From: a bacterium
GTDB taxonomy: Bacteria; UBP15; UBA6099; JAJRTR01
Length of the DNA stretch: 9,813 nt
Assembly: GCA_024278215.1 (NCBI GenBank)
Contig: JAJRTR010000109.1
Span: 1 to 9,813, forward strand
Direction: 5' to 3'
The translations under genes and the position numbers were made by a program. Below the pieces are notes generated by a model. That model made no database searches. It had not been told where the DNA came from and saw nothing but the letters and a program-made list of their open reading frames with translations. Below are positions 851-9,536 of this stretch, piece by piece (position 1 is the stretch's first letter; each line of letters starts with the position of its first letter).

Positions 851-874
851 TGTCATTCTGAATGAAGCGAAGAG
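851..874 (+). repeat. TGTCATTCTGAATGAAGCGA-type intergenic repeat motif
   Basis: The stretch at 851-874 matches, from memory, a short motif (GTCATTCTGA.. GAAGCGAAG) that recurs between genes in many unrelated bacterial genomes. It occurs once here. It matters because the first possible ATG of the GH31 frame (862) falls inside it, which argues against using that ATG as the start. Confidence 0.3.
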
Positions 875-892
875 TAAATAACAGTTTCATCT

Positions 893-896
893 GGAG
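893..896 (+). promoter_or_regulatory. Ribosome binding site (GGAG) that decides the GH31 start
   Basis: GGAG lies 10 bases before the ATG at 907. The upstream in-frame ATG at 862 has no purine-rich site and sits in a repeat-like motif, so the 907 start is preferred. Confidence 0.5.
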
Positions 897-906
897 CATT
901 TGTGCT

Positions 907-3348
907 ATGACAATAAGAAGACGACGAAGCATAAATTATATCGGCGAAATCACAAAGGCGGTGGAAACAGGCACCGGAGTGGAGTTTTGCGTCGAGGGCA
1001 GTGCCGCCTCGATTACTGTCTGCACTCCTGAAATTGTGCGTGTAAATGTTACGCCCGGCCATACTGAGATCGAGCCCGCCATCTCATGGTCGGTCGTGAT
1101 GGACATGCCCGAAAAAGCGGAGTTTGATTTCGGTGAAAATGAAGATGGCTGGATAATTGACACCGGTGCGCTGAATATTGAAATATGTCGTGATCCTTTC
1201 AGAGTCAAGGCGAAAGATAAATCCGGGCGCGTGCTGTGCGAAGACGCGAAGTGGGGCGGCGTCGGGTCGCGCGGCAGCCGCGTATGCTGCGACAAAATCA
1301 TTCACGACAATGAGCACTTCTATGGCTTCGGAGAAAAAGCTTTTACCATCGACAGGCGCGGAAAAAAGATGGTGATGTGGAACACCGACGCCGCGAATCA
1401 CCAGTGGGACAGCGACCCGCTGTATATCGCCATTCCTTTTTTTATCGGCCTCCACGACGACACTGCTTACGGCATATTTTTCGACAATTCATGGAAGCCT
1501 TTTTTCGACATGGGCGGCATAAGCAAGCAATACTACACTTTCGGGGCCGAAGGCGGACCCGTCAATTACTACATAATCGCGGGGCCGCGCGTCAAAGATG
1601 TAATAGAAAGATATACCGCCCTCACGGGGCGCGGTTCGATTCCGCCGCTGTGGTCGCTCGGCTACCACCAGTCGCGGTGGAGCTATAAGAACGAAAAGAA
1701 AGTGAAACAGATCGCCGATAAAATGCGGGAACATAATATCCCCTGCGACGTGATCCATCTCGACATCCATTACATGAAGGGCTACCGCGTCTTCACGTGG
1801 AATCCGAGAAGGTTTTCCGACCCGGCGGCGATGACTGAAAATCTTGCAAAAGACGGCTTCCGCATCGTTACGATTATCGACCCCGGCGTAAAAATCGACA
1901 CGGATTACGATATGTACCGTGAAGGTATCGAGAACGACTTTTTCTGCAAAGAACGTGGCGGACGGCTTTTCACAGGCATCGTGTGGCCGGGCGAGACGCA
2001 TTTTCCGGACTTCGTGCGCGACGATGTCCGCGACTGGTGGGCCGGTCATGTCGAGCGTTTCATGAATGTCAGCGGCAATGCCGGAATATGGAACGATATG
2101 AACGAACCGAGTGTAAACATAAAACCGCATCTTCGGCGCATAAAAACCGACGACATCTATCATGAGGAAAAGGGCAGGCGCGTACCGCATCTGAAACTGA
2201 GGAATCTTTACGCCCAGCACGAAGCGATGGCGACTCACGACGGTATGCTCAGGGCGCGACCCGGTGAGAGACCGTTTATTCTCACACGCTCGGGCTTTGC
2301 AGGCATACAGAGATACGCGGCGGCATGGACCGGAGACAACACGAGTTCATGGGCGCATCTGCGTTTGAGCATCCCCATGCTGTGCGGACTGGGTATGTCG
2401 GGCGTTTCGTTTGCCGGCGCGGATATCGGGGGCTTCGCAGGCAACTGCACTCCTGAATTGTTTGCGCGCTGGATTCAACTCGGAGTTTTCTATCCCTTCT
2501 GCCGCACTCACACAATGATGCTGTCGCGTGCGCAGCAGCCGTGGTCGTTCGGGCGGCGTGTGCTTCGCATAGCAAGGGAGCACATCCGGCTTCGCTACAG
2601 GCTGCTGCCTTATATTTATAATGCGTTCCATGAAAACTCGCTCACTGGAATACCCGTAATGAGGTCAATGGCTCTTGAGTTCGATGATGACGATAAATGC
2701 CTTTCGATGGACGATCAGTTCATGTTCGGTCCCGACCTGATGATCGCTCCGGTTATGGAGCGGGGCGCACGCAGTCGCAGTGTATATCTGCCTCGCTGCA
2801 ACTGGTTCGATTTCTATACAGGCGTTAAGTATACAGGCGGCACGGATGTACAGGGGGAAGCGCCCCTCGATAGAATTCCTGTTTATGTGCGTGCCGGAAG
2901 CATCATTCCGATGGCACCCGTCGTTCAGTGTACCGACAACTATCGCGCCGACCCGCTTCTGCTTCACGTATATCCCGGTAACGACACAAAGCTGTCTCTT
3001 TATGAAGACGATGGAATAAGTTACCCCGCGGGAAATGCGTACATACTTACCGACTTCGCATTCGACGAGTCCGGATCAGGAATGAAGCTTACCGGCAAAA
3101 CCCGATCAGGCGGTGAATCCGGGAAAGAAATGATTGCGACAAGGAAGAATATTACTGTCTTTTTTTATTCTTCAGATAAATATCCAAAAAAGATTTCGCA
3201 CAATGGAAGAGCGCTTCACGAAGCGTGGCTCGAAGACCTTCCGGGCGAGGAACCTTTCCATGGCTGGTTGTGGGACAGGGGAAAGAAGATACTTGCCGTC
3301 GGTTTCAACAACAACAACGAAGATTTTACAATTGATATTGAATTCTGA
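907..3348 (+). CDS. GH31 family alpha-glucosidase (alpha-glycosidase)
   Basis: This 813-residue protein belongs to glycoside hydrolase family 31, retaining enzymes that release sugars from alpha-linked glycans or glycosides. Domains, numbered from Met at 907: an N-terminal beta-sandwich (about 1-235) with the family segment HFYGFGEKAF (137-146); a TIM-barrel catalytic domain starting near GSIPPLWSLGYHQSRW (about 243-258), with HLDIHYM (Asp286) for substrate binding; nucleophile Asp397 in WNDMNEP; acid/base Asp477 in WTGDNTSSW; then C-terminal beta domains with the DUF5110-like YEDDG (about 699-703). All key residues are present and the length is normal for the family. No signal peptide is evident, so it probably acts in the cytoplasm on imported oligosaccharides. 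Start 907 is chosen for its GGAG site; 862 would add 15 basic residues. It is the first gene of a run with ispH and a methyltransferase. GH31 also contains alpha-xylosidases and other specificities, so the substrate stays open. Confidence 0.93.
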   Translation: MTIRRRRSINYIGEITKAVETGTGVEFCVEGSAASITVCTPEIVRVNVTPGHTEIEPAISWSVVMDMPEKAEFDFGENEDGWIIDTGALNIEICRDPFRVKAKDKSGRVLCEDAKWGGVGSRGSRVCCDKIIHDNEHFYGFGEKAFTIDRRGKKMVMWNTDAANHQWDSDPLYIAIPFFIGLHDDTAYGIFFDNSWKPFFDMGGISKQYYTFGAEGGPVNYYIIAGPRVKDVIERYTALTGRGSIPPLWSLGYHQSRWSYKNEKKVKQIADKMREHNIPCDVIHLDIHYMKGYRVFTWNPRRFSDPAAMTENLAKDGFRIVTIIDPGVKIDTDYDMYREGIENDFFCKERGGRLFTGIVWPGETHFPDFVRDDVRDWWAGHVERFMNVSGNAGIWNDMNEPSVNIKPHLRRIKTDDIYHEEKGRRVPHLKLRNLYAQHEAMATHDGMLRARPGERPFILTRSGFAGIQRYAAAWTGDNTSSWAHLRLSIPMLCGLGMSGVSFAGADIGGFAGNCTPELFARWIQLGVFYPFCRTHTMMLSRAQQPWSFGRRVLRIAREHIRLRYRLLPYIYNAFHENSLTGIPVMRSMALEFDDDDKCLSMDDQFMFGPDLMIAPVMERGARSRSVYLPRCNWFDFYTGVKYTGGTDVQGEAPLDRIPVYVRAGSIIPMAPVVQCTDNYRADPLLLHVYPGNDTKLSLYEDDGISYPAGNAYILTDFAFDESGSGMKLTGKTRSGGESGKEMIATRKNITVFFYSSDKYPKKISHNGRALHEAWLEDLPGEEPFHGWLWDRGKKILAVGFNNNNEDFTIDIEF

Positions 3349-3379
3349 CAGGTGTTGCGCAGAAGATACGGGCTTTATT

Positions 3380-4219
3380 ATGGATGTGACAATAGCCGGA
3401 AACGCCGGATTCTGCGGCGGTGTGAGACGGGTTGTAAATCTCGTCGAAAACGCACTGTCAGATAATTTACGTCCTTTGTATACAATCGGTGAAATCGTCC
3501 ATAACCGGCGAGTTGTTGAAATGTTTCGTGACAGGGGCGTGCAGACTGTGTCGACTGCGAACGATGTCCCCGGAAAATGCACGGCAGTCATCAGGGCACA
3601 CGGGCTGCCTGCCGAAGAAATCAGCGTTCTCAGGGCAAAGGACATTAACCTGCTCGACGGCACATGCGGGAAAGTTGCAAAGGTTACGTACAGGATAAGG
3701 GAATGCGCTGTCGAAGGACGTCTCATCTATATTGCGGGCGAACACGGGCACGCTGAAATGAAAACGCACACGAGCATCGCGCCGGGAAGTACGGTCCATG
3801 TGGCCGGCCTCAAGCAACTGATGCAAATGAGTATTCCCCGTATCCCGTCGGCCCTTTTTGCACAGACTACTTTCTCTCCATCCGGGTTTTCACAGATAAA
3901 AGATCACCTGACCGGGTGCATCGGCGACCTTAAAGTATTCGATACGATCTGCAACTGGACACTCGAGGCCCAGCGCGCGGCGGCGGAGGTTGCCGGGCAG
4001 GTTGACTTGATGATCGTTGTCGGCGGAAAAAACAGTGCGAATACCGCGAGACTTGTCGAGGTATCCCGCGGCGCGGGTGCGGAAACAGTTCTCATAGAAA
4101 GTGTCGATGAACTAAGAGATTACGATTTCACAAAAATTGCGATGGCAGGTATCACGGGCGGCGCGTCGACTCTGCCCGCGGATATCGATGAAGTGCGGCG
4201 TTTTCTCGAAAGAATATAG
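3380..4219 (+). CDS. ispH: 4-hydroxy-3-methylbut-2-enyl diphosphate reductase (IspH/LytB)
   Basis: IspH is the last enzyme of the MEP isoprenoid pathway. It reduces HMBPP to IPP and DMAPP with an iron-sulfur cluster in the cytoplasm. The 279-residue product has the three cluster cysteines: Cys12 (GFCGGV), Cys96 (DGTCGK) and Cys191 (DTICNWT). It also has substrate residues His41 (VHNRR), His74 (RAHG), His124 and Glu126 (GHAE), the AQTT motif (161-164), KNSANT (217-222) and the C-terminal GITGGAST (257-264). Cys12, His41, His74, Cys96, His124 and Glu126 fall at the same numbers as in E. coli. The frame extends upstream to 3134 inside the GH31 gene, but conserved sequence starts at the 3380 ATG, the usual IspH start. 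The ribosome site is weak (purine-rich AGAAGA about 13 bases upstream), so translation may depend on coupling to the GH31 gene, which ends 31 bases before. Small departures such as GITGGASTL for the usual GITAGASTP do not touch catalytic residues. Confidence 0.95.
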   Translation: MDVTIAGNAGFCGGVRRVVNLVENALSDNLRPLYTIGEIVHNRRVVEMFRDRGVQTVSTANDVPGKCTAVIRAHGLPAEEISVLRAKDINLLDGTCGKVAKVTYRIRECAVEGRLIYIAGEHGHAEMKTHTSIAPGSTVHVAGLKQLMQMSIPRIPSALFAQTTFSPSGFSQIKDHLTGCIGDLKVFDTICNWTLEAQRAAAEVAGQVDLMIVVGGKNSANTARLVEVSRGAGAETVLIESVDELRDYDFTKIAMAGITGGASTLPADIDEVRRFLERI

Positions 4220-4221
4220 CA

Positions 4222-4935
4222 ATGAATATTCAATCTGAAAAATGGAAGCTCTTCGATGGCGGGCATGTACCTTCGTCTTTACATATCTCCCATTTGCTTT
4301 TTGACTACATAAATAAGGATTCACACATACTCGACCTGGGCTGCGGCGAGGGACGTGCGATAATCGAACTGTTCGAGAAAGGATACGACGCAATAACGGG
4401 GACGGACATAAACGCGCAATCACTGAACAACGCGGTGAAACGGCTGAAGACACATGCGCCCGCCGGCAACCTGCCTCAACTTGCCGTATCGGACGCATAC
4501 TCATTGCCATTCCGCAACGAATGCTTCGATTGCGTGGTCACTCATGCTTTCTGGACAACGATTATCGGTGCGGAAAACAGAGCGGCAGTTGCCTGCGAGA
4601 TATTTCGGGTCCTGCGCAACGATGGAATACTTTACATAAGCGATTTTGCCCGCAATGACGACAAACCGTTATATCGAAAAAGATATGAAGAAGGAAAAGC
4701 GATGGGTTACGAGGAAGGCACATTTGAAGCAGCCGGCGTGTCAGCATCCCAAACCTATCTCGCACACCATTACACGATAGAAGAAATAGAAGATTTTACC
4801 CGTGTTGCCGGGTTGAAAATGCAACGCTGGTCTTTGCAGGTCGTCACTACCCGGAGCGGAAATAAGATCGACGGACATGTCGCTATCGCCTTGAAACCGG
4901 ATGCCGCCTGTTCAAAATGCAGGTCGGACAAGTGA
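4222..4935 (+). CDS. Class I SAM-dependent methyltransferase
   Basis: The 237-residue protein has the Rossmann-like methyltransferase fold: motif I LDLGCGEGR (37-45) for S-adenosylmethionine, acidic Asp62 at the end of strand 2 (TGTDIN), the motif-II-like SDAYSLPF (90-97), FDCVVTHAFW (102-111) at strand 4, and EIFRVLRNDGILYISDF (126-142), the typical post-II and III region. It resembles small-molecule methyltransferases of the UbiE/methyltransferase-11 type. The acceptor cannot be told from sequence, and the region after 145 (YRKRYEEGKAMGYEEG) shows no family signature I recognise. It starts 2 bases after the ispH stop, so it is almost certainly translated from the same message. It ends with a Cys-x-x-Cys tail (CSKC, 230-233), which may be chance. 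The gene converges on the transporter gene with 29 bases between the stops and no good terminator in between. Confidence 0.85.
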   Translation: MNIQSEKWKLFDGGHVPSSLHISHLLFDYINKDSHILDLGCGEGRAIIELFEKGYDAITGTDINAQSLNNAVKRLKTHAPAGNLPQLAVSDAYSLPFRNECFDCVVTHAFWTTIIGAENRAAVACEIFRVLRNDGILYISDFARNDDKPLYRKRYEEGKAMGYEEGTFEAAGVSASQTYLAHHYTIEEIEDFTRVAGLKMQRWSLQVVTTRSGNKIDGHVAIALKPDAACSKCRSDK

Positions 4936-4964: not shown

Positions 4965-7538
4965 CTACCAGCCGCTTTTGCGCAGTATCTGCTCGGCAGC
5001 CTGCATCGACAGGTTCTGGCGAAGTTTCATGTGCTCGATCTTCGCAAGTTTGATCTTTTCCATCAGGGAATCGAGTTCGACAGGTTTCTGGACAATATCG
5101 AATGCACCGAGTTTCATTGCTTCGACACTGACCTGAATCGTCGCCTTGCCCGTAACAAAAATCACCTGCATGGACTCGTCGCGCTCCTTCATCTGCCGCA
5201 ATACTTCGATGCCGTCGATGCCCGGCATATTTATGTCGAGCAGCACAACATCCATTTCAGTAGACAGTGTTTTCTCGAGCGCTTCCTCGCCACTTTTAGC
5301 GGTGAACACCCTGACATTCCGCTTTTTCATGCGCTTTGACAGCAGGGACACAAAATCTTCCTCGTCGTCTACTATCAATACTCTGGTCATCCTGTCCGCT
5401 ACGAATGAAACAGGGAACACTTCCTTGAGCGGGCATTTCTTTTCATCGGAGTCCCTGTGCGCTTCTTCATGAATATGTTCGAGAGCCGTTGCGACATTCC
5501 TGTAGATGTGGTCTTCGCCAATTTTCTCCAGGAGATGAGTTCGACTGAAAGTGGCCAGCACGGATTCGTTGAGTCCGCTGAAGGAAACGTCGTATCCGGA
5601 TTCACGCAGTCTGTCGATCATAATAGAAAGGAATTCCTCGCCTGAAGCGTCCACTTCAGTGATACCGTTGCCTACGATAAGGATATGGCGCAGGTCGGGT
5701 TTTTCGGCGACTTCCTCGAGTATTGTATCTTCGAAGAAAGAAACATTTGCAAAGAACATCGGGCCGCTGAACCGCATCACGGCTATATGCCTGCATTCGC
5801 CCAGTCCATGTGTCTCGGCGTCCCTGAACGAGCCGTCGTCGAACTTTGCAAGCACGTGAACGGCGGGCTTCATGTTTCGCAGCAGATAGAGCCCTATCGA
5901 GAGTCCGACCCCGATCATGAGTCCGCGGTCGAGGTGCGGTGCGAAATACAGAGTTGTCAGACATGTTATTATGCTGATGGCGCCGTCGTATTTCTGGACC
6001 TGCCAGGCATGAACAAAACCGCTTACATTTACGAGGCCGATCACTGCCATCATAATAATTGATGCCAGCACCGCCTGCGGCAGGTGGTACAGCAGAGGCG
6101 TGAAGAATAATAGTGTCAGGCCGACAACGATACTGCTGATGACATTCGACAGGCCGGTAGCCGCGCCGGCCTGCAGGTTCACCGCCGAACGCGAGAATGA
6201 GCCGGACACGGCATAACTGCTGAAGCATGAACCCACTATGTTCGACAGCCCCTGTCCGATAAGTTCCTGGTTGGGGTCGAGCCGCTGGCCTGTTTTTGCA
6301 GCCATTGCTTTGGCGATTGATATCGCTTCCATAAATCCGAGTATGGAAATGATCACCGCCATGGGGAGCAATGTGAGTATAATCTTAAAATCGATTTTAG
6401 GAATTTTGAATTTTGGCAGTTCGGCAGGAATCTCGCCGATGACGGCGCCGCCGCCCATCATTTTGATTCTTTCCGTATTCAATTCGGAATAGCCGACTTT
6501 GATACGCCATATCTTTCCTTTGATTTTACTTCCGGGAGGCGCATTCCCGGCAAGGTAAAACGAAAGTTTACCCTCGCCCGTGTCCACTGCATTGAAGTGT
6601 GAATTCCGCAGTTCATATCTCAACTCATGCTGGTTCTCGCGCAAGTCCTCGATTTCAACATTAAGTATTGCGATTTTGTTGAAAAGCAAAAGGTATTCAA
6701 CCGTGTTGGTACCGTGTTGTTCCTTTGTCCTGTCGAGTTCCTCCCGCAAAAGAAACCTTTGCTCGCTCTTTTCATTCCCGAGTCTGACGGATTCGTTGAA
6801 CTCTTCGATCACACTGACGATCTCATCTGATTTTATCTCTGAAATGTCGGCGTAAAAGTCATTGCTGAAGCCGACGAGTGCGGACAGAACGGTTGTGACC
6901 GCTACGGCCATAAGCACATTGGGCAACCTTGGGTTGAGCTTTTTCATGCCGATCATAATGGCGAAAGAGACCACCGCCATGCCCAGTGTGGGAAGGTGCG
7001 TGTAGTTAAAAGCCGAGATGATTACGTTATATATCGTCTCATAATGGTGGTGCCCTTTGTCAACATAAACACCGAATAATTTCGACAACTGGCTCGTCGC
7101 GATGATGATAGCGGCAGCATTCGTGAATCCGTTGACCACCGGATGCGACAGGAAATTGACAACAAGCCCCAGCTTGAGCGCGCCGAGAGTGAACTGGAAA
7201 GCACCCACGATAAGCGCAAGCAGAATCGCATAGGCAATGAACATATCACTGCCGGCGGTAGCAAGCGGTGCAAGAGCAGTATTTGTCATGAGCGAAACAA
7301 CTGCCACCGGGCCGGTCGCAAGCTGATAGCTCGACCCGAACAGCGAAGCGACAAGAGGAGGAAGAAAAGCCGCGTAGAGACCATAATACGGCGGCAGTCC
7401 TGCAAGTTGAGCATAAGCCATGGATTGGGGAATCAGTACCATGGCGACAGTCAGCCCGCCTATGATATCCGATCTGAGCTTATCTTTGGAATAATCGCTA
7501 AACCAACCGAGGAAAGGAAGGAACCTTGCAAGAATCAT
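4965..7538 (-). CDS. SulP-family anion transporter fused to STAS and response-regulator receiver domains
   Basis: One uninterrupted 857-residue frame. Residues about 20-555 are a SulP (SLC26-like) secondary anion transporter of the inner membrane: the signature region IPQSMAYAQLAGLPPYYGLY (36-55), ATGPVAVVSLM (74-84), GFMEAISIAKAMA (401-413) and many hydrophobic helices. About 135 residues (225-362) are inserted before the IGEIPAELP segment, with heptad-like charged helices (240-312) then a beta-rich part. About 575-692 is a STAS domain with DASGEE (630-635). After a charged linker, 717-857 is a complete receiver domain: Asp724/Asp725, phosphoacceptor Asp768 (LLDINMPG), Thr796 and Lys818 (QKP). 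SulP-STAS is normal; the covalent receiver is unusual and implies phosphorylation control. No histidine kinase is in the window. The ion (sulfate, bicarbonate or other) is unknown. The start has GGGAG nine bases upstream; a TATAGT -10-like box lies at 7588-7593 on this strand. Met717 could be an internal start for a separate receiver. Confidence 0.9.
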   Translation of the reverse strand: MILARFLPFLGWFSDYSKDKLRSDIIGGLTVAMVLIPQSMAYAQLAGLPPYYGLYAAFLPPLVASLFGSSYQLATGPVAVVSLMTNTALAPLATAGSDMFIAYAILLALIVGAFQFTLGALKLGLVVNFLSHPVVNGFTNAAAIIIATSQLSKLFGVYVDKGHHHYETIYNVIISAFNYTHLPTLGMAVVSFAIMIGMKKLNPRLPNVLMAVAVTTVLSALVGFSNDFYADISEIKSDEIVSVIEEFNESVRLGNEKSEQRFLLREELDRTKEQHGTNTVEYLLLFNKIAILNVEIEDLRENQHELRYELRNSHFNAVDTGEGKLSFYLAGNAPPGSKIKGKIWRIKVGYSELNTERIKMMGGGAVIGEIPAELPKFKIPKIDFKIILTLLPMAVIISILGFMEAISIAKAMAAKTGQRLDPNQELIGQGLSNIVGSCFSSYAVSGSFSRSAVNLQAGAATGLSNVISSIVVGLTLLFFTPLLYHLPQAVLASIIMMAVIGLVNVSGFVHAWQVQKYDGAISIITCLTTLYFAPHLDRGLMIGVGLSIGLYLLRNMKPAVHVLAKFDDGSFRDAETHGLGECRHIAVMRFSGPMFFANVSFFEDTILEEVAEKPDLRHILIVGNGITEVDASGEEFLSIMIDRLRESGYDVSFSGLNESVLATFSRTHLLEKIGEDHIYRNVATALEHIHEEAHRDSDEKKCPLKEVFPVSFVADRMTRVLIVDDEEDFVSLLSKRMKKRNVRVFTAKSGEEALEKTLSTEMDVVLLDINMPGIDGIEVLRQMKERDESMQVIFVTGKATIQVSVEAMKLGAFDIVQKPVELDSLMEKIKLAKIEHMKLRQNLSMQAAEQILRKSGW

Positions 7539-8130: not shown

Positions 8131-8176
8131 AGAAAAAAAATATAATATTGACAAGTATTTTCGTAGGTGATAGTAT
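8131..8176 (+). promoter_or_regulatory. Strong promoter of the acidic secreted protein gene
   Basis: A perfect -35 TTGACA (8148-8153), a 17-base spacer and -10 TAGTAT (8171-8176) preceded by TG one base upstream (extended -10). Directly before the -35 is an A/T-only tract (about 8133-8147) that could serve as an UP element. The expected start of transcription is near 8183, giving an untranslated leader of about 155 bases. Confidence 0.75.
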
Positions 8177-8182
8177 ACCGGG

Positions 8183-8339
8183 CGTACAAGTATATCGCCG
8201 CTTTTCAGTAGCGAGGATGTGCTGTTACTGTAGAGGCATATCATGCGGCAAATATTCAATAATTTTTTCTCGAAGGCTTTTTACGAGCCTTATAGATAAA
8301 CAAAATACCAGAAACAGGCAGAACGAGAGGAGAGTGTTA
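8183..8339 (+). other. Long 5' leader with possible RNA structure and strong ribosome site
   Basis: The leader can form a stem closing GCCGC (8197-8201) on GCGGC (8245-8249). A small inner hairpin CGCT/AGCG and a second hairpin GGCT..AGCC near 8275-8290 are also possible. It ends with AGGAG (8328-8332), 7 bases before the ATG at 8340. I do not recognise a known riboswitch or thermometer. The structure may stabilise the message or regulate it; this is inference from base pairing only. Confidence 0.4.
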
Positions 8340-9536
8340 ATGAGAGACATCAAGATGCTGTTGGTAGTAATGTGTGCGTTTATCTTCGCCCTTGGAGTAG
8401 CTATGTTTCCCGTGGCGAGAATCGCAACAGTTGATATGGGAATCGCCATCGCCCAGGCGCAGGACGACAGTGACGCAAAAGCAGACACGACAGACAGTGC
8501 TGAAAGTGCCGAAGGCGCAACCAGCACAGAAAGCGCAGAGAGCGAAGACGACTGGGACGACTGGGACGACGAAGAAGGTGATGAAGAGGATGCTTTCGGC
8601 AACATTATGGAAACAACCTTCGCGACCATCGGTGAAGTAACAGTCGACGGCGCTACAGCCGGTTCCGATGCTAAAGTAACCGCAACAATAACCCTCGAAG
8701 ATGAAGAAGAGGAAGCCACAATTTCATCTGTCAAACTAAGCTACTCGGTCGACGGCGGCGCTGTCAGCACAGTTGACATGAGCGACAACGGCGACGGCAC
8801 ATATTCCGGTACAATCCCCGTACAGGCCTCAGGTGCTAAAGTCGAATATTACATCACAGTCACAGACTCCAACAACAATGTTACAACCGGCGCGCTTCCC
8901 GGACATGAAAATGTTGTTTCCGGTGTTGCCGACATGGACAACTCGGAAGATATCGTCGCAGACGATGCGGACCTGATTGATCTCGCAGCCGGTTATGACG
9001 ATGACTATCTCTATGTCGACTTCTCCGTTCAGGGCGCGATCAGCGGCGGAACAATTGATCCTCCGTACATTCAACTCTACGGCGTAAAAATCACAAACCC
9101 CGACACTGAACAGGGCGAAGGACTCATGGTTGGTAAACTCTGGATTTACCTCCCGCTCGCAAAAGAAAAAGAAGTTCAGGATAAATTCATGCCGATGCTT
9201 ATGGACGCAGGCAAGGAGTACATCGACCAGATCGGCCAGGAAAACATCGACAGAGTCATGCAGACTGGCATGATGGTGCTGGATATACAGAAACTTATGG
9301 GCGGCAATTTCATGGAAGGCATGCTCTTCTCCGCGGAACCTGAAGCGGATATCGACGGCGGAAAATTCTCAGGCAAAATCAAGCGTGCGGCGCTTGGCGA
9401 CAACCCGTCAGGCTACCTCCGTATCATCACGCTCACCGCAGCCAATGCTTCCATTGATTCATTCATGCCCATACCGCTGAACTGCTCCAACTTCCTCACA
9501 ATCTACACGAGCGACTACAGCTACGAAGTAAAGTAA
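8340..9536 (+). CDS. Secreted, highly acidic protein of unknown function with Ig-like domain
   Basis: The start at 8340 is fixed by AGGAG 7 bases upstream and by the signal peptide beginning right there; the frame runs further up to 8148 but that part overlaps the promoter. The 398-residue product has a basic start (MRDIK), a hydrophobic core (7-24) and a likely signal peptidase site after AQA (38-40), so it is exported. Residues 41-85 are low-complexity and acidic, peaking in SEDDWDDWDDEEGDEED (68-84). About 92-184 looks like an Ig or fibronectin-type beta-sandwich (SVKLSYSVDGG.., DNGDGTYSGTIP, VEYYITVTDSNNN). About 200-260 (DADLIDLAAGYDDDYLYVDFSV) resembles the beta segments of extracellular carbohydrate-binding or DOMON-like modules. 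The rest (275-398) has amphipathic helices with Met-rich stretches and no family I know. It is alone between a strong promoter and a terminator, so probably abundant. Possible roles are surface or periplasmic binding of cations or polymers; none is proven. Confidence 0.85.
   Translation: MRDIKMLLVVMCAFIFALGVAMFPVARIATVDMGIAIAQAQDDSDAKADTTDSAESAEGATSTESAESEDDWDDWDDEEGDEEDAFGNIMETTFATIGEVTVDGATAGSDAKVTATITLEDEEEEATISSVKLSYSVDGGAVSTVDMSDNGDGTYSGTIPVQASGAKVEYYITVTDSNNNVTTGALPGHENVVSGVADMDNSEDIVADDADLIDLAAGYDDDYLYVDFSVQGAISGGTIDPPYIQLYGVKITNPDTEQGEGLMVGKLWIYLPLAKEKEVQDKFMPMLMDAGKEYIDQIGQENIDRVMQTGMMVLDIQKLMGGNFMEGMLFSAEPEADIDGGKFSGKIKRAALGDNPSGYLRIITLTAANASIDSFMPIPLNCSNFLTIYTSDYSYEVK

Follow-up and report, generated by a model that had tools for sequence, protein, structure and literature searches.

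A SulP-type anion transporter joined in one reading frame to a receiver of putative phosphorelay origin

The window, a stretch of 9,813 nt of bacterial DNA, encoded in one reading frame a SulP/SLC26-type anion transporter that continues behind its STAS domain into a complete two-component receiver domain. From sequence comparison we lean towards reading this protein as a transporter with a captured terminal relay receiver, in which phosphorylation of Asp768 by the relay would shift anion flux. Both parts belong to known families; their union and the relay context appear to be new. If this reading is true, a receiver whose covalently attached output is a transporter would let a periplasmic sensor act on ion flux in seconds, bypassing gene expression, and the fusion itself points to a specific phosphorelay.

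The SulP–STAS–receiver gene

The gene occupied positions 4965–7538 on the minus strand, to which all feature coordinates in this section refer, and gave one frame of 857 aa plus stop. By Pfam, SulP, STAS, and receiver followed each other inside this frame. The single stop-free frame described in the original prediction was confirmed. The Sulfate_transp profile matched in two pieces with 346 bits. The first transmembrane half (aa 1–225, 6864–7538) covered PF00916 positions 1–211 and aligned to SLC26/SULTR structures, and the second half (aa 363–560, 5859–6452), which holds the GSFSRSAVN motif, covered PF00916 positions 218–380. The NCBIfam model TIGR00815 (sulP) gave a score of 443.8 bits against a cut-off of 380.45 bits, and the best solved match in the PDB alignment was sulfate transporter 4.1 (E 6.5e-95). 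Oxyanion transport of the SULTR type is suggested by the GSFSRSAVN motif and by the closest structural relatives. The STAS domain (aa 584–685, 5484–5789) showed 54.7 bits with PF01740 (cut-off 22.6) and was followed by a Cys-Pro-Leu motif (aa 702–704, 5427–5435) shared without change by all 7 aligned members. The linker KEVFPVSFVADR (aa 705–716, 5391–5426), leading from transporter to receiver, contained no in-frame stop.

The receiver domain (aa 717–857, 4968–5390) matched Response_reg (PF00072) at aa 720–830 over the full profile length of 1–111, and its score of 104.4 bits (cut-off 30.2) is far beyond chance. The acidic pair (Asp724 and Asp725), the phospho-Asp (Asp768), Thr796, and Lys818 were all present, exactly the residues that had been named earlier as the complete phosphorylation set. 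By alignment of receivers, the codon of the predicted phospho-acceptor Asp768 lies at 5235–5237. The C-terminal tail ILRKSGW (4968–4988) was of a kind common to stand-alone receivers ending in ILKRKGW, ILKSKGW, IVRKKGW, or ILKGKSW. The AlphaFold model of the whole protein reached a pLDDT of 44 and was too poor to reveal any receiver–STAS contact.

An insert of about 137 aa (aa ~226–362, 6453–6863) split the two SulP halves. The alignments with SLC26 structures in the PDB stopped at aa 224 and resumed at aa 363, which places the insert at the TM7–TM8 loop. This loop faces outside in SLC26 proteins, and by the known topology the insert would be periplasmic. Modelled alone with AlphaFold2, the insert formed an antiparallel long helical hairpin with a small beta part (pLDDT 90.7, pTM 0.81), for which Foldseek and VIA-align found generic helical hairpins only and no confident fold relative. 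The same insert was kept in relatives from several phyla, down to a protein of 38% identity on a Legionella adelaidensis plasmid (L058).

The window protein had both transmembrane halves, GSFSRSAVN, and the C-terminal STAS domain in common with the SulP/SLC26 family (TIGR00815, PF00916 plus STAS; for example plant SULTR4;1 and prestin), but it differs in its folded insert, its Cys-Pro-Leu motif, and the complete receiver that follows STAS. SulP proteins with a fused carbonic anhydrase or cyclic-nucleotide-binding domain are known, and these also carry an attached domain, but theirs is not a two-component receiver. We found no published SulP–receiver protein and no published cytidylate-kinase-like protein with a response regulator, which is weak evidence, as the classic response-regulator censuses lay outside the search. 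A survey of sulfate transporters does not mention two-component systems (PMC5840216).

Relatives of the transporter and ancestry of the receiver

The four closest relatives of the SulP protein showed 70% (L034), 66% (L035, genome G002), 61% (L045, G099), and 59% (L006, G030) identity. These four and the Legionella protein (38%) had no receiver and ended a few to about 30 residues after the Cys-Pro-Leu motif behind STAS. Since the four closest relatives end there, the intact fusion is particular to the genome of the window (G000). Relatives that always have two separate genes had been named as a finding that would speak against a true fusion; the close relatives were instead without any attached receiver. 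SulP and receiver as adjacent genes were not found in relatives, and in G002 the receiver gene was the fifth and last one behind SulP, in an order inferred across a contig break where the contig ends have no sequence overlap.

One other SulP protein, from G195 (48% identity), had a tail of 150 aa counted from the Cys-Pro-Leu motif. A Pfam search of this tail matched no domain, but a profile of 78 receivers detected a receiver in it (E 1e-6 in a 10-sequence search), and its local alignment with the window receiver scored 55, compared with 27.9 ± 4.7 and at most 51 in 1000 shuffles. This receiver lacks the Lys as well as the second acidic-pair Asp, and we therefore regard it as decayed; with these residues lost, the fused form cannot in general depend on phosphorylation. 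On present sequences, the intact SulP–receiver fusion is known from one genome, with a decayed counterpart in another phylum.

Among 386 genomes, the decayed G195 protein was the only further SulP–receiver fusion. No fusion in frame and of the right length was seen in 398 genomes of one large phylum, none among the plasmid matches listed, and none in viral contigs; searches centred on small phyla gave no additional case. A SulP-like match at G682:C55:7071–8180 lay in an open frame of 1064 aa when two stop codons were read through, and may be a larger fusion or a broken gene. The SulP protein of G262 (contig C861, L047) carried four tandem STAS-like domains, each with a C-P-L or C-P-Y end, and no receiver.

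In a tree of 79 receivers, the window receiver fell with support of 100/96 among the stand-alone receivers of REC-GW, a clade defined here as stand-alone receivers with a C-terminal K/S-G/S-W tail, and grouped with six of them. An orphan receiver of unknown origin was ruled out by this tree. The closest match (49%) was the REC-GW receiver of the relay operon in its own genome (G000:C25). The window receiver itself is encoded outside that operon, in a gene on contig C82. Window receiver and REC-GW had the C-terminal tail (I)L/VxxKxGW in common. Helix alpha1 is the usual kinase-facing helix of receivers. Its pattern xxFxxxLS(E/K)RMxxR was present in the window receiver, in REC-GW, and in the receiver of the operon's cytidylate-kinase-like protein, but was absent from the examined G000 receivers on contigs C129, C70, and C206; the receiver on G000 contig C184 was similar and sister of the REC-GW clade. 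All five catalytic positions were kept in the window receiver and in every aligned REC-GW and REC-DASS receiver. Single-domain response regulators and Spo0F/Spo0B-type phosphorelays have in common with the window protein the DD/D/T/K receiver and the ancestry among stand-alone operon receivers, but the terminal receiver here sits covalently in a transporter and is neither DNA-acting nor a free protein.

The phosphorelay operon and the anion transporters beside it

No kinase was encoded on the 9.8-kb contig, as had been noted earlier. Rather than an unknown orphan kinase, the likely partner is an identifiable phosphorelay operon on another contig (G000:C25:27,752–32,288). In G000 (L039), G002 (L040), and G030 (L041) this operon ran in the order Cytidylate_kin2–receiver, dCache–HisKA–HATPase kinase, short receiver, a protein of about 230 aa, and REC-GW, and the order was partly conserved in G195. 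In G099 the part from kinase to REC-GW lay on one contig and the cytidylate-kinase-like–receiver gene on another, and in G012 and G300 receiver–receiver proteins replaced the cytidylate-kinase-like one and the ~230-aa protein occupied another position in the cluster. The head of the operon (L039:11035–12288 and homologues) is a Cytidylate_kin2 domain fused to a receiver. A second type of Cytidylate_kin2/receiver/kinase cluster was observed at L043:10608–18000 (G030:C84), within a few kb of SulP in that genome. For ligand assignment, no solved relative of the dCache sensor was found by sequence.

The ~230-aa protein (L039:8250–8939 and homologues) had no Pfam match. An H-E-(I/L/F) His box (SHEINN and variants) was present in 7 of 7 copies. 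The N, G1, F, and G2 ATP boxes, which the operon kinases keep, were absent in the six copies that reach this region; the G195 copy was cut by a contig end before it. With the His box kept and the ATP boxes lost, the protein resembles a Spo0B/ChpT-type phosphotransferase, and it is a probable new family of this kind. Read in this way, the operon set makes up a complete four-step relay, and the phosphotransferase-like protein, not the kinase, would probably be the last donor to the window receiver.

Anion transporters stood next to several of these relays. A CBS protein and a DASS (SLC13, PF00939) transporter adjoined REC-GW in G030, G012, and G300, and CBS-CBS-DASS genes lay about 5 kb beyond REC-GW in G099. 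In G195 the SulP gene with the decayed receiver was the first gene of the operon, 12 bp ahead of the cytidylate-kinase-like–receiver (cytK2–receiver) gene. In G002 a cytK2 gene started 49 bp after SulP at a contig end, and the remaining cytK2–receiver part opened the contig bearing the relay; as the two cytK2 fragments do not overlap, this SulP–relay join is putative. In G000 itself no transporter adjoined the C25 relay, and SulP stood alone on C82 with its own receiver copy. Directly after DASS, a Porin_O_P outer-membrane porin gene (L041:3471–4961) closed the G030 operon, which suggests anion passage through both membranes.

The SulP subfamily (at least 50% identity over length) was found in G000, G002, G030, G099, and G195 only of 386 genomes, and the cytK2–receiver at E < 1e-100 occurred in exactly the same genomes of this set. 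The probability of this co-occurrence by chance was 1.4e-11 ignoring kinship, a value that is too small because of kinship. Sister genomes in three lineages (G001 and G003–G006; G098; G049) had neither the SulP subfamily nor the cytK2–receiver. In G262 the cytK2–receiver was absent, and its SulP, a more distant one (53% over 331 aa), was present only as a contig fragment. About 17 of 25 DASS loci, in nine genomes, had a receiver within 3 kb, compared with about 4 expected by a rough estimate that assumes roughly 100 receivers per genome. Judged by gene neighbourhood and co-occurrence, the genome context outside the window ties the REC-GW receiver type to anion transporters.

Receivers were also fused directly to DASS transporters. 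The G002 protein (687 aa, L086:5368–7431) consisted of an N-terminal receiver and a DASS/CitMHS transporter, and full-length relatives with 52–63% identity to it were present in G030, G099, G098, G214, and G195 (L092–L096), so that these fusions span six genomes of about four lineages. Their receiver residues were intact. dCache kinases adjoined the receiver–DASS genes, in G099 on the same contig but further off. The receivers of these proteins formed their own clade, and the joining of receiver and anion transporter is therefore a separate one here; with these fusions conserved in six genomes, receivers tied to anion transporters are a theme that recurs among these uncultivated bacteria. As in the window protein, a full-residue receiver is fused to an anion transporter, and several genomes are shared with the SulP subfamily; there, however, the receiver is N-terminal and of another clade, and the transporter is DASS and not SulP. 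The window protein, a SulP with a C-terminal receiver, is thus analogous to the receiver–DASS class and not a member of it. The receiver–DASS fusion was better conserved than the SulP–receiver fusion.

Proposed mechanism, alternative readings and other genes

In the mechanism that we propose, the dCache histidine kinase of G000:C25 most likely senses a periplasmic ligand, and the phosphoryl group would pass from the kinase to the short receiver, then to the degenerate-kinase phosphotransferase, and finally to Asp768 of the transporter's receiver. Phosphorylation of Asp768 would alter the receiver surface beside STAS, and this change, felt through STAS, would shift the anion flux of the SulP dimer. 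The order of phosphotransfer, the service of this receiver by the C25 relay, and a direct effect on transport are what we infer from the domains and their gene order, and the transporter may, as suggested earlier, be gated or relocated. In relatives the receiver is separate and encoded with DASS or SulP, and the fusion would therefore make permanent an association that otherwise depends on contact. Three findings count against this explanation: the intact fusion is found in one genome and is missing from the four closest relatives, the relay of the same genome lies on another contig with no transporter beside it, and the fused receiver of G195 is decayed.

The window's genome comprises 207 contigs and resembles a metagenome assembly. 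Two neighbours, a SulP gene that stops close to aa 712 and an independent receiver gene with Met717 as its start, might have been joined through a base error or by chimeric assembly. We consider this very unlikely. The receiver does begin at Met codon 717 with MTRVLIVDD, as is typical of a stand-alone receiver, the relatives stop at this point, and the fusion is known from a single assembly. The junction (5391–5435) had no in-frame stop. An out-of-frame TAG was observed 11 nt before the Met717 ATG, so that one indel would give back two genes, but out-of-frame stops are common by chance over such a distance and the TAG therefore says little either way. The frame of the linker, however, agreed with the tail of the G002 protein (CPLRTVLPV against CPLKEVFPV), and GC3 and codon fit were unchanged across the junction. 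The Met717 ATG had no Shine-Dalgarno sequence, although its stand-alone paralogue in G000 carries AGGAG, and a second SulP, in G195 from another phylum, holds a receiver remnant at the same place. Even with an artefactual join the genes would stay adjacent, and most of the functional inference would survive.

The signal may also run in reverse, with the transporter as a co-sensor that controls the receiver, which takes phosphate from the relay or returns it, through its transport state or its load of substrate, and with the relay reporting anion flux. The fusion and operon data fit this direction too, the relay has three receivers besides the fused one, any of which could be a phosphate sink, and some transporters are known to modulate sensor kinases, as DctA/DcuB do with DcuS. 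Sequence does not separate the directions, but a terminal receiver placed by the transporter gene agrees slightly more with an output role, and we hold the reverse signal to be rather unlikely. That the fused receiver is a phosphate sink, an adaptor, or a localisation tag with no effect on transport would agree with its decay in G195, and single-domain receivers often work by binding alone (PMC12471899). The retention of the five catalytic positions in the window receiver and in all aligned REC-GW and REC-DASS receivers, and the repeated independent linkage of receivers to transporters, make this account decidedly unlikely.

Under the preferred reading, with the captured receiver as relay output, the conserved receiver–DASS fusions open the idea to several lineages. 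It is possible, and we put it forward tentatively, that phosphorelays of uncultivated phyla set anion transport directly instead of transcription. Their terminal receivers, fused to transporters of two unrelated families (SulP and DASS) or encoded next to them, would make the transporter a new kind of response-regulator output. Response regulators otherwise act mostly on DNA, on enzymes, or by binding partners. Regulation of SulP proteins via STAS is a long-standing question for SLC26, human transporters included, and a switchable domain after STAS would offer a handle on it.

The rest of the window held genes of other kinds. A GH31 glycosidase, LytB/IspH, and a class-I methyltransferase were encoded at 862–4935, the latter two genes 2 bp apart (4219/4222). 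A secreted acidic protein with a DWDDWDDEEGDEED stretch was encoded at 8148–9536 and gave a borderline CBM_56 match of 27.1 bits against a cut-off of 27.
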